IMG/VR virus record: IMGVR_UViG_3300027621_000426
Span: 1-20,580 of that record
Direction: 5' to 3' (one strand)
DNA: 20,580 bases
Origin: a virus
Part shown: positions 2,370-5,959 of the stretch, one piece after another
How positions within the stretch are numbered: the first letter of the stretch is position 1
Layout of the letters: the number at the start of each line of letters is the position of its first letter
Notes under the pieces: model-generated
The model's database searches: none
What the model saw: the letters and a program-made list of their open reading frames with translations, nothing else
What the model was told of the DNA's origin: nothing
Made by a program: the position numbers and the translations under genes

Positions 2370-2882
2370 GTGACCAAGGCCGCAAGTATCAACGACCTGA
2401 CGGCGCCGCACAGTGAAGCCAAGTCGTTTGACGCATGGTTCTTTGCACAGCCCAAGAAGGTGCAGGATAAGATGCGCGAGTCCGGCGTGCTGCCCTACCG
2501 CGAGATGGTACAGTCTAGGCACGTGTTCTGCATCGACGCTAATCATCCCAAGTGGGCGTTTAATCCTACAGCTGATGAGCACCGCACTGAGGTCGACGCG
2601 TTTATCTCTCGCGATCATGTCGGCGTCATGCTCAAGGCGTTCATGGATGCGCTGGCCTGCTCATCGTCGCTCAAGTTCAGGCGCCACGTGGAGATGATCC
2701 GTTGGGCGCTGTCTCTCCCTGGCTGTCTCGACTCACGCACCATCGCCCGGATGTATGGACGCTCTCACATCTGGGCACAGAAGCGGGCGCGTCAGATTCG
2801 TTCGACAGTGAACGGTGACGCGTGCGGATTGTTCCCGCACATCAATTCCAGACGCGACAAACATAAGATGCCACGCCGATGA
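2370..2882 (+). CDS. Hypothetical protein with C-terminal helix-turn-helix
   Basis: 170 residues from a GTG start. In-frame upstream codons end at a TGA (2343), and the nearby ATG at 2362 reads only three codons before a stop, so GTG at 2370 is the best choice. Residues about 118-144 (GCLDSRTIARMYGRSHIWAQKRARQIR) look like a sigma-region-4 or transposase-type HTH. The N-terminal half has no motif I can name. Such HTH proteins just before terminase genes are often phage regulators, but function is not shown. The stop TGA overlaps an ATG at 2879 (ATGA) that opens a micro-ORF. Confidence 0.68.
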   Translation: MTKAASINDLTAPHSEAKSFDAWFFAQPKKVQDKMRESGVLPYREMVQSRHVFCIDANHPKWAFNPTADEHRTEVDAFISRDHVGVMLKAFMDALACSSSLKFRRHVEMIRWALSLPGCLDSRTIARMYGRSHIWAQKRARQIRSTVNGDACGLFPHINSRRDKHKMPRR

Positions 2883-3010
2883 ATAACGCCCAGAAGCCCC
2901 GGCTAGGTAGTCTTCTAAGCCCCCCCGGTACCTGCTCGTGGCCCGACACCACGACCCAGAAGTGCATGGTCACTTCATCAAAACACCCTGTTGACAATGG
3001 GACCCTGTGA
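2879..3010 (+). CDS. Candidate micro-ORF, 43 aa, ATGA-coupled
   Basis: ATG at 2879-2881 overlaps the preceding stop (2880-2882). The frame runs 43 codons to TGA at 3008-3010, overlapping the start of the nuclease gene (2997) by 14 nt, so it exactly bridges an otherwise empty gap of more than 100 nt. The product starts MNNAQKPRLGSLL, contains two Cys and one His in its second half (Cys19, Cys29, His36), and ends HPVDNGTL. No family is recognised. Coupling at one end and overlap at the other are the only support; it could be chance. Confidence 0.38.
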   Translation: MNNAQKPRLGSLLSPPGTCSWPDTTTQKCMVTSSKHPVDNGTL

Positions 3011-3644
3011 TTTGAAAACCCGGCAGCTTGGAGAACTTGCTCGCCTTGAAAAAGCAAAGCGAGACGCGGCAATCGTCGAGGCCTACAGACTTTGTGGCAC
3101 GATCCATGGAACCCGTAAGGCTTTTGAGTTTATGCATTCACGTTGCGTCGTACGAAAGGTTATCAGCAAGGCCGGACTTTATGACAAATGTAAGCGCGAG
3201 CGCATGCAGATTAAGCGATTTAAAGCCTCTCCAAAGAAGTCCAAGTGGGCAGACAGGACCTATTCTAAAACACACGGGTCAGAACTTGAGATGCAAACTC
3301 AAGCGGTACAAATGCTTAAAGATGCCTGCGTCTCATATCCTCGACACATTGAAAGAGAAGTTCAGGTTCCCGGTTGCCAGATGCGTGCAGACCTAGTCGG
3401 CTACAACTGGGCGATTGAGACAAAGAAAGAATGCAGCTCACAAGGTATGCTTACGGCAATGGCCCAATGCCAAGTTTATCGAAAGCACTTAAGCCGGCGC
3501 CACGTCTGCATCCTTTTGCCCGACGATATTGAGCCCGCTGCCTTTTACGTCAGTGAGTGCCTGTCCTACGGCATCCCAGTCATTAAGATGTCTCAGCTTA
3601 TCTGGTGGGTGAACACCGTCCAAAACGATGCCCAGCCAAACTGA
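2997..3644 (+). CDS. HTH plus PD-(D/E)XK nuclease-like protein
   Basis: 215 residues from ATG 2997 (a TTG at 2991 is two codons earlier). Residues about 20-62 look like an HTH (AAIVEAYRLCGTIHGTRKAF, then CVVRKVISKAGLY). Residues about 95-205 carry a PD-(D/E)XK core: a conserved-looking Glu in helix or strand 1 (Glu98 or Glu119/121), MRADLV with Asp132, the AIETKK strand with Glu141 and Lys143, and a QxxxY motif at Gln157-Tyr161 as in RecB-like nucleases. It is expected to bind and cut DNA; homing endonuclease, resolvase or packaging-associated nuclease are all possible. It overlaps the small terminase gene by 17 nt, a slot where phages often carry an HNH nuclease. The gene is AT-richer than its neighbours (26 of 60 bases G/C at 3181-3240), hinting at separate acquisition. 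Confidence 0.72.
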   Translation: MGPCDLKTRQLGELARLEKAKRDAAIVEAYRLCGTIHGTRKAFEFMHSRCVVRKVISKAGLYDKCKRERMQIKRFKASPKKSKWADRTYSKTHGSELEMQTQAVQMLKDACVSYPRHIEREVQVPGCQMRADLVGYNWAIETKKECSSQGMLTAMAQCQVYRKHLSRRHVCILLPDDIEPAAFYVSECLSYGIPVIKMSQLIWWVNTVQNDAQPN

Positions 3645-4179
3645 AATCGCCGAGGCCCTTGGCCTAACGCGTCAGCGCGTTTCTATCCTCGTCAAGAAGG
3701 GTATGCCCATCGACTCGGTCGAAGCCGCCACCGCTTGGAGGCAAAGCCAAGAGGACGCCCGGGTAAGGCGTGCGCCGACGGCACCTGAGCAGCTCGACGA
3801 CGGCTCCCTGGCTGACACGATCAGCGAGCACCGTGCCCTAGTCGGTCGGGCCCGCGGCGTCTGGCAAGCGGCCATGGAGCAGGGCGACCCGCATCAAGGC
3901 AAATACCAGTCAGCCTACAACGCCTCGCTCAAATCGCTTGTGCAGTTGGAGGCCGAACAGGAGAGGCGCATCATTCTCACGAAGGATTTTATCAGTGCCA
4001 AGGAAGCCGGCGAAGCCATGCGGGAACTTGCCTCGGGCGTGGTCAACCGTCTCGACAAACTCGCCCTCGACGTGGCCGAAGGGTGCAACCCCGAGAACCC
4101 TGCCAAGGCCGTCAAGGTGCTCGAGGCTTGGGTGCGCCGCGTGAAGGCCGAACTCTCCGCCGTCGATGAACAAGAGTGA
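3628..4179 (+). CDS. Terminase small subunit, Nu1-like
   Basis: 183 residues. The N-terminal segment SQTEIAEALGLTRQRVSILVKKGMPI (residues 3-28), followed by VEAATAWRQ, is the winged-helix DNA-recognition domain typical of lambda Nu1-type small terminases. The rest is mostly helical with a coiled-coil-like stretch at about 95-130 and a C-terminal helical part (KVLEAWVRRVKAELS) suited to contacting the large subunit. Role: recognition of the packaging site and assembly of the terminase complex. The ATG lies inside the nuclease gene (17-nt overlap) and the stop lies 14 nt inside the large terminase gene, so these three genes form a tightly coupled block. Confidence 0.82.
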   Translation: MPSQTEIAEALGLTRQRVSILVKKGMPIDSVEAATAWRQSQEDARVRRAPTAPEQLDDGSLADTISEHRALVGRARGVWQAAMEQGDPHQGKYQSAYNASLKSLVQLEAEQERRIILTKDFISAKEAGEAMRELASGVVNRLDKLALDVAEGCNPENPAKAVKVLEAWVRRVKAELSAVDEQE

Positions 4180-5959
4180 CCTGCTCCGCATCGGGCGGGA
4201 CGTGCTCAAGCCTTCGGACTCGGGCGACATCGTCGACTGGCTGGAGGACAACGTGCACGCCATCCCTGACTCACCGATGCCCGGGCCGTTCCGATCAGAG
4301 CGGACGCCGTGGATTGCCGAGGCCCTGCGCATTGCCGCCGACCCCGAGACGAAACTACTGACCATCCTCGCCAGCATCCAGTCAGGCAAATCTCTCTTCG
4401 CTCGTCTGTTCACCTGCCACATCATCGCCAACGCTCCAGGCCCGTGCCTCCTTGCCCAGGCTACGGACCCCGAGGCGCGTGACTTCAGCCTACGCTACCT
4501 TCGACCTCTCTGGGCCAACTGCCCGCCGGTGAAAGACCGCATCTCGCTCGACGACATGGACCGCTCGACGACGACGGACTTCGACCGCATGACGCTTTAC
4601 TGTCGCGGCATCTGGAACGAAGCCAACCTTCAGCGCCTGTCGCTACGGTACACGATTGCCGACGAGTGCTGGATGAGCCCGCCCGGTCACTTGGCCGAAC
4701 TTAGCGCGCGCGTCACGGCCTTCGGCTGGATGGGCAAACGCATCTTCATGTCGCAGGGTGGCAAAGCGGGTCAGGAGTTTCATCAGCTGCACGAGACGAC
4801 CGACCAACGTGACTGGAACTTCCGTTGCCCGAAGTGCGACCACCTTCAGCCCTGGGTGTGGGAGCAGATCAGGTTTCCCGAGGACGCAAAGGTCAGCGGG
4901 TCATGGGACTTGCACAAGGTCAACGCCGGCACGACCTACGAGTGCGCGTCCTGCCGCACCTTGCTCCCTGACACGAACGCCACGCGTATCGAGGCCAACG
5001 CCCGCGGAACGTTTATCGCCACCGCCGCATCGGTCAACGCTGGTCATATCGGCCTGCACTGGAACGCCCTTGCGACGATGAGCTGGGGCGAGCTGGGTGT
5101 GCTCATGCTCAAGGCCAAGGAGTCGGTCGACCAATACGGCGACGACAACGCCAGGATGCAATTTAAGCAGAAGCGGCTGGCCATGCCCTGGTCAGAAGAG
5201 GGTGGCGAGATGGTGAGCACCGCCGAGTCTGCCAACTACAAGATGGGCGACGCGTGGGACGCCGAGGCCATGATCTCGCCGAAGGGCCGCGTCATCGAGC
5301 AGACGGACGCACCGCAAGGTAGCATCGCCTTCCGCACGATGGGCGTCGACGTTCAGCGTGGTCACTTCTGGGTGGTCGTTCGGCGCTGGGCTAAGACCGG
5401 GCATAGTCGGCTGCTGGCCTTTGCCCGCATCGAGTCATGGGGCGACATCGAGGCATACGCCAAACAATGGGCGGTCCATCCGGCGCTAGTTTTTGTGGAC
5501 TCAGGAGATTCGACTTCTGAAGTCTACCGCGAGTGCGCCAAGCGTAACTGGAAAACGGCCAAGGGGTCGGGCTCCGAGGACTTCGCGGTAACCGATCGGG
5601 ACGGAAAGACCAGCCGTCGCTACTACTCCGAGAAGCAGGCCGTCGTCGTCCCTGGCATACCTCAGCGGGCCATCCTCGTCTCTCACTCCAATCTCGCCGG
5701 CAAAGACCTCCTGCACGGCCTCCGAGCCCGCAAGGTCTGGACCTACGCCCTAGACGCCGACCCCGAGTATGTCTCGCAGCTGAACTCCGAGGTCCGAGTC
5801 AAAGACCGCCGCACGGGCAAGGCGCACTGGATACTCCCCCAGGGCAAGAAGGACAATCACGCCCTCGACTGTGAAATCCTCGCCCTGCTGGCCGCCGTCC
5901 GCTGGGGCATCGCCGGCAGAGAAACCACCGAAACCGACTTGCCTCAGAGCGGAACATGA
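4166..5959 (+). CDS. Terminase large subunit, GpA family
   Basis: 597 residues, close to the family's usual size. The ATPase part has a variant Walker A, ASIQSGKS at 69-76, and a Walker B TIADE with Asp166/Glu167. A Zn-ribbon-like pair of CxxC motifs follows (Cys221/224 and Cys260/263). The RNase H-like nuclease has GVDVQ (Asp395), LVFVDSGD (Asp445) and NHALDC (Asp568), the expected acidic triad. Role: cutting concatemeric DNA and pumping it into proheads through the portal. All key residues are present, so it should be active. The stop TGA (5957-5959) overlaps an ATG at 5956 (ATGA). Confidence 0.93.
   Translation: MNKSDLLRIGRDVLKPSDSGDIVDWLEDNVHAIPDSPMPGPFRSERTPWIAEALRIAADPETKLLTILASIQSGKSLFARLFTCHIIANAPGPCLLAQATDPEARDFSLRYLRPLWANCPPVKDRISLDDMDRSTTTDFDRMTLYCRGIWNEANLQRLSLRYTIADECWMSPPGHLAELSARVTAFGWMGKRIFMSQGGKAGQEFHQLHETTDQRDWNFRCPKCDHLQPWVWEQIRFPEDAKVSGSWDLHKVNAGTTYECASCRTLLPDTNATRIEANARGTFIATAASVNAGHIGLHWNALATMSWGELGVLMLKAKESVDQYGDDNARMQFKQKRLAMPWSEEGGEMVSTAESANYKMGDAWDAEAMISPKGRVIEQTDAPQGSIAFRTMGVDVQRGHFWVVVRRWAKTGHSRLLAFARIESWGDIEAYAKQWAVHPALVFVDSGDSTSEVYRECAKRNWKTAKGSGSEDFAVTDRDGKTSRRYYSEKQAVVVPGIPQRAILVSHSNLAGKDLLHGLRARKVWTYALDADPEYVSQLNSEVRVKDRRTGKAHWILPQGKKDNHALDCEILALLAAVRWGIAGRETTETDLPQSGT

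Follow-up and report, generated by a model that had tools for sequence, protein, structure and literature searches.

What does a predicted nuclease do when its gene lies between the cos site of a phage and the start codon of the small terminase (TerS)? We analyzed this question in the window, that is, the whole 20,580-base virus record, where the gene, here called nuc, is placed as follows.

2370–2882, + strand: orf170, a conserved gene at the right genome end, directly before cos, recognized from relatives.
2997–3644 (ATG at 2997, stop included), + strand: nuc, a 215-aa predicted helix-turn-helix (HTH) plus PD-(D/E)XK nuclease gene, from its ORF, homologues and fold model.
3628–4179, + strand: TerS, small terminase (phrog_57), from a PHROG match and comparison of relatives; its first ~390 nt and nuc are inherited together.
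4166–5959, + strand: TerL, GpA type, with ATPase and nuclease domains, from domain matches.

A lambda-type portal gene and an S49 peptidase gene follow TerL. A DnaB-N plus AAA_25 (RecA-like) helicase gene was observed at 539–1846 of the window, on the right-end side of cos, so that the packaged genome ends with replication genes. A sequence-only reading of this DNA had described nuc as an ORF at 2997–3644 that overlaps the terminase operon and is AT-richer than its neighbors, and each of these points was borne out. The ORF encodes 215 aa and shares 17 nt with the start of TerS, and its GC content is 0.50 compared to 0.63 for TerS and TerL (0.49–0.56 for nuc across relatives). Homologues were found in viral contigs, 31 in a first collection and then 42, and dN/dS was ~0.05–0.25 where dS, which is near saturation, could be estimated. 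These relatives in viral contigs and the low dN/dS indicated that nuc is not a chance ORF. As judged from these substitution ratios, nuc is under purifying selection.

The predicted protein was divided into two domains, encoded as follows.

2997–3227, + strand: N-terminal helical domain with HTH-like helices (residues ~1–77; HTH 36–58), from weak fold matches.
3267–3638, + strand: predicted PD-(D/E)XK catalytic domain, residues 91–214 (E96, D132, E141, K143, Q157, Y161), from the predicted fold and alignment.

The AlphaFold model of the protein (pLDDT 85.7) showed secondary-structure elements in the order H96–109, E119–123, E130–134, E138–142, H148–164 and E169–174, which is the alpha-beta-beta-beta-alpha-beta core of the PD-(D/E)XK superfamily. 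The six residues, including E96 as the helix-1 Glu of the nuclease core, were identical in 33 of the 33 distinct homologues having those columns; K144 varied in the alignment. The RecB-like signature that had been read from the letters (D132, E141-x-K143 and QxxxY at 157–161) is thus invariant, and the D...(D/E)-x-K acidic active site of the superfamily is found in all 33 homologues. Comparison of residues ~91–214 with solved folds gave VC1899 (Z 11.1), Can2 (10.9), Cdn1 (10.6), AF1548 (9.6), PspGI (9.4) and NucS (8.6), so the anticipated fold is present at Z 8–11. Foldseek E-values for the model were weak (best 5.5e-3), indicating that a predicted PD-(D/E)XK fold for residues 91–214 is supported, but not any specific family. 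The N-terminal domain modeled alone formed a helical bundle (pLDDT 87; helices 3–33, 36–42 and 49–58), whose closest solved folds were HTH proteins (Fis, Z 5.7, and Tc3 transposase). The HTH-like region of the sequence-only reading therefore stood as a helical domain with HTH proteins as its nearest folds, but more weakly, with all Z <6; on this model, an HTH is plausible.

Searches of Pfam, NCBIfam and PADLOC gave no meaningful match that would name the family of nuc, and the PHROG matches were weak and only to functionally uncharacterized families (phrog_5928, for which other members of the nuc family reached E 5e-9 at best). When PDB sequences were searched with a profile, the helical N-terminus matched designed PPR proteins, which we judged a composition artefact. 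No relatives of nuc were found among 50,697 phage records, and the bacterial genome collection contained one match (L305), in a MAG named Opitutae. The closest TerL among phage records was that of Verrucomicrobia phage P8625, with 25% identity, whose host belongs to the class Opitutae (PMC4642752). Since TerL is nearest to that of P8625 and one nuc carrier lies in an Opitutae-named MAG, an Opitutae host is likely for the window phage.

Some proteins with PD-(D/E)XK folds are resolvases or repair nucleases, and NucS/EndoMS was among the fold matches of nuc. The protein might thus be a structure-specific nuclease resolving branched DNA before packaging, as had been suggested from the sequence. 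However, nuc is missing in close relatives, most of them without a replacement seen at its slot, and the HTH domain suggests sequence-specific binding. No positive sign of debranching before packaging was found, and we consider this role highly improbable.

The ends of the packaged genome were read from the ends of fetched contigs of relatives. Contigs of 32 distinct relatives started exactly at TGGCCCGACACC or a variant of it, 24 relatives stopped exactly at ..CGTGGCCCGACAC, and other end offsets occurred once or twice each. This pile-up of starts and stops at one site indicated a cos with 11-nt cohesive ends. We infer that the 11-nt overlap of left and right ends is a 5′ overhang filled in at library preparation, and that cos lies at 2939–2949 of the window. 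Assembly breaks at a hairpin were ruled out as the origin of these ends, because left and right contig ends each fall on one exact base, with an 11-nt overlap between the two ends; the right end of L254, followed by AGATCGG, which was taken as adapter sequence, also counters such breaks. The resulting features are as follows.

2937–2953, + strand: inverted repeat CGTGG-CCCGACA-CCACG around cosN, from the sequence and conserved in relatives.
2939–2949, + strand: cosN TGGCCCGACAC, inferred 11-nt cohesive end, the left genome end starting at 2939, from relatives' contig ends and sequence identity.
2950–2996, + strand: cos-to-nuc spacer ending in CCTGTTGACA, probable TerS binding region by analogy with HK97.

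At 2897–2924 of the window, and likewise in relatives, the right genome end has another conserved inverted repeat (CTAAGGAGTCTCCTAG-like) and a C-rich run immediately ahead of cos. HK97 TerS binds 15–29 bp downstream of its cos cut (PMC11331095), and by this analogy the spacer at 2950–2996 is a probable TerS site. The length of the spacer is kept in alleles filled with nuc and in most empty alleles. The distance from cos to nuc is 58 nt, and in carriers nuc is hence the first gene of the packaged genome. Pile-ups of metagenomic contig ends can thus give exact genome ends.

The distribution of nuc was analyzed in relatives chosen by TerL alone. Among 66 assessable relatives (14 more were not assessable), 15 carried nuc and 51 did not. 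On a TerL tree of 122 rows, nuc changed state 25 times, 14 of these changes being forced by supported branches, although recombination within TerL would inflate the count. The mean after shuffling was 32.5 changes, indicating that nuc presence is only mildly clustered. One carrier (L016) and one non-carrier (L087) have identical TerL proteins. In a further carrier, L046, TerL is ~46% identical to the others, nuc ~70% and TerS residues 1–32 97%. This discordance and the at least 14 forced changes point to horizontal spread of nuc independently of the host genome, as for free-standing homing genes.

Five empty alleles (L333, L334, L337, L320 and L184) aligned with filled alleles at both borders, and the insert was 586–631 nt. 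With a slash marking each border, filled alleles read ..CCTGTTGACA/ATG[nuc]..AACG/ATGCCCAGCCAAAC.. and empty alleles read ..CCTGTATTTACA/ATGCCCAGCCAAAC... Alleles without nuc of the same TerS type are L333, L334 and L337, and also L184, L320 and L324. The filled L029 and the empty L320 showed 94.7% identity over 1.5 kb from the TerS start; upstream of its last ~18 nt, L320 is unlike cos, and the contig end there may be chimeric. Judged from these alignments, nuc is a clean insertion of ~0.6 kb, placed precisely at the start codon of TerS. The two halves of nuc were discordant among relatives; for example, L021 and L030 are 96% identical in the HTH half and 74% in the nuclease half. The earlier idea of a homing-like element of separate arrival thus gains from the optional presence at this slot, the precise empty sites, the tree changes, the carrier with a distant TerL and the deviant GC content. 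Three findings go beyond that reading: cos lies 58 nt upstream, nuc is polymorphic for presence and absence, and its presence is linked to the TerS allele, as described below.

The type of TerS N-terminus differed with nuc. All first-set carriers had the MPSQ.. type (43/43), and non-carriers mostly had ALTN, RVTN or AIEQ types, which also vary among non-carriers. We compared pairs of phages with TerL ≥96% identical, scoring TerS residues 1–32 as different when <70% identical. They differed in all 196 carrier/non-carrier pairs, compared to 2 of 236 pairs of non-carriers and none of 35 pairs of carriers; the pairs are not independent. In near-identical phages, the DNA difference ran from the TerS start to approximately nt 390 of the gene, where it ended abruptly. 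Similarly, L003 and L101, from one metagenome, showed replacement of the TerS block within ~94% identical flanks. The left side, toward orf170, was variable whether or not nuc was present. A ~390-nt TerS tract is therefore replaced along with nuc, but adjacency alone could hold both together, and the linkage may be plain physical hitch-hiking in an ordinarily recombining region. Alternatively, the nuclease might drive a packaging-specificity cassette by cutting the cos–TerS region of rivals and replacing the TerS DNA-binding/core segment and the cos-proximal spacer, a possibility that we regard as doubtful. If it were true, one homing act would both spread nuc and alter which genomes the terminase recognizes.

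The single TerS N-terminal type of these 43 carriers, together with the position of nuc adjoining cos and overlapping TerS, could also reflect a packaging accessory. Such a protein would work with the terminase at cos, generally or only with the MPSQ-type TerS, as the HK97 HNH protein does in work cited by PMC10448857. However, nuc is absent from most relatives, and four genomes (L324, L333, L334 and L337) have the MPSQ-type TerS without nuc. Two of them, L324 and L334, start exactly at cos, indicating that genomes of this TerS type are cut without nuc. Furthermore, TerL has its own nuclease domain (GpA). A general need of nuc for cos cutting was thus ruled out, since nuc-free phages, some with the same TerS type, keep ends exactly at cos. 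The proposal that the nuclease helps cos cleavage therefore failed as a general requirement, and an accessory role is unlikely.

Other genes were also found around cos and the terminase genes, and by its gene content this region is an insertion hot spot. HNH-type ORFs lie between orf170 and cos in L061 (reverse strand, 2551–3150), L086, L093, L106, L135 and L160; their HNH Pfam matches are below the curated cut-off. These ORFs read through cosN, and cleavage during packaging would therefore sever them close to their 3′ ends. An HNH gene was present in 0/20 nuc carriers and 7/53 non-carriers, numbers too small to indicate whether the two genes exclude each other. The remark that a PD-(D/E)XK nuclease is less usual here than an HNH nuclease was fair, HNH genes occurring at this neighboring slot in some relatives. 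In L166, L173 and L113, which have a third TerS N-terminal type, the interval from cos to TerS holds a 70-aa ORF and a gene combining ParB-N with an N6/N4 methyltransferase. Between TerS and TerL, we observed a DNA methyltransferase gene in the nuc carriers L011, L016 and L036, an SspD-like (PAPS-reductase-like) gene in L121, and a Lys/Pro-rich ORF of 43–47 aa (..KRKPKPRRKPMPKPSRPFK..) in L004, L005, L061 and L211, which is absent from the window. The Opitutae phage isolate P8625 likewise encodes a DNA methyltransferase a short distance upstream of TerL.

Restriction-modification was ruled out, because no methyltransferase is consistently linked to nuc: one lies next to TerS in only 3 carriers, and no cognate methyltransferase was found among the ORFs examined in the window, which is a fragment. 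The same genes bear on another explanation, in which nuc is a competition weapon without homing. It would destroy the DNA of nuc-less relatives that co-infect or superinfect the cell, and its spread would depend only on ordinary recombination and selection. The optional presence, the invariant active site and a diverged, possibly self-protecting carrier allele would suit a weapon. However, no protective partner gene was found, DNA methyltransferases occur with only few carriers, and PADLOC gave no match. Precise insertion at a single site is, moreover, a trait of homing genes, and we consider a weapon quite unlikely.

A homing-type endonuclease is the best reading, because nuc presence is variable and nuc is not needed for cos ends. 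From the sequence comparisons, we consider it moderately probable that nuc is a free-standing, optional homing-type (marker-exclusion) PD-(D/E)XK endonuclease with an HTH-like domain that mobilizes a cos/TerS specificity cassette. In a mixed infection, the enzyme would cut the nuc-less allele in the cos–TerS region, and repair from the carrier would copy nuc with the adjoining TerS DNA-binding segment and the cos-proximal spacer. The diverged TerS segment would keep the enzyme from cutting the carrier's own DNA. Given the 17-nt gene overlap, translation of TerS probably depends on coupling to nuc in carriers. Spacer and TerS alignments inspected by eye revealed no candidate target, meaning a sequence shared by every non-carrier and interrupted in every carrier. 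Free-standing homing genes are defined as optional genes between conserved genes (PMC6083498) and are enriched next to terminases (PMC10448857). In a Skunavirus study, packaging nucleases were present in all relatives and homing nucleases were variable (PMC12724721). Here, nuc is optional (15 carriers, 51 non-carriers) at a fixed site with exact borders between conserved elements. Beside cos, packaging and homing roles can grade into each other (PMC10448857), and the invariant active site and the TerS overlap also fit a domesticated gene. In this poorly known phage group, genomes with and without the nuclease occur naturally at a cos end, and both alleles are defined at single-base precision. 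PMC10448857 asked whether nucleases encoded next to terminases serve packaging or act as selfish homing genes, and this locus makes that question testable.

Among known systems, Can2/Card1/VC1899, PspGI and NucS share the predicted PD-(D/E)XK fold of nuc (Z 8–11 over ~100–116 residues), but at 4–14% identity and with other biology, and nuc lacks a CARF domain. I-Ssp6803I is an intron-encoded PD-(D/E)XK homing endonuclease. Its family belongs to the same catalytic superfamily as nuc, the likeness being one of superfamily; in contrast, nuc is a free-standing gene, and its product has a QxxxY motif and an HTH-like domain. PD-(D/E)XK is one of six homing families (PMC6083498). HK97-type HNH packaging nucleases are similarly small nuclease genes beside the terminase and cos (PMC10448857). 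However, nuc has the PD-(D/E)XK fold and motif instead of the HNH fold, it is missing in most close relatives and hence not part of a conserved packaging module, and genome ends are cut without it. The intronless homing genes of the T4 Seg proteins and F-CphI resemble nuc in being optional nuclease genes between conserved elements with an essential gene adjoining, in their co-inherited divergent flanking tract and in their rapid turnover (PMC6083498). In contrast to these, the catalytic domain of nuc is PD-(D/E)XK, not GIY-YIG, HNH or Endo VII, and nuc, whose homing is putative, is flanked by cos on one side and the start codon of TerS on the other.
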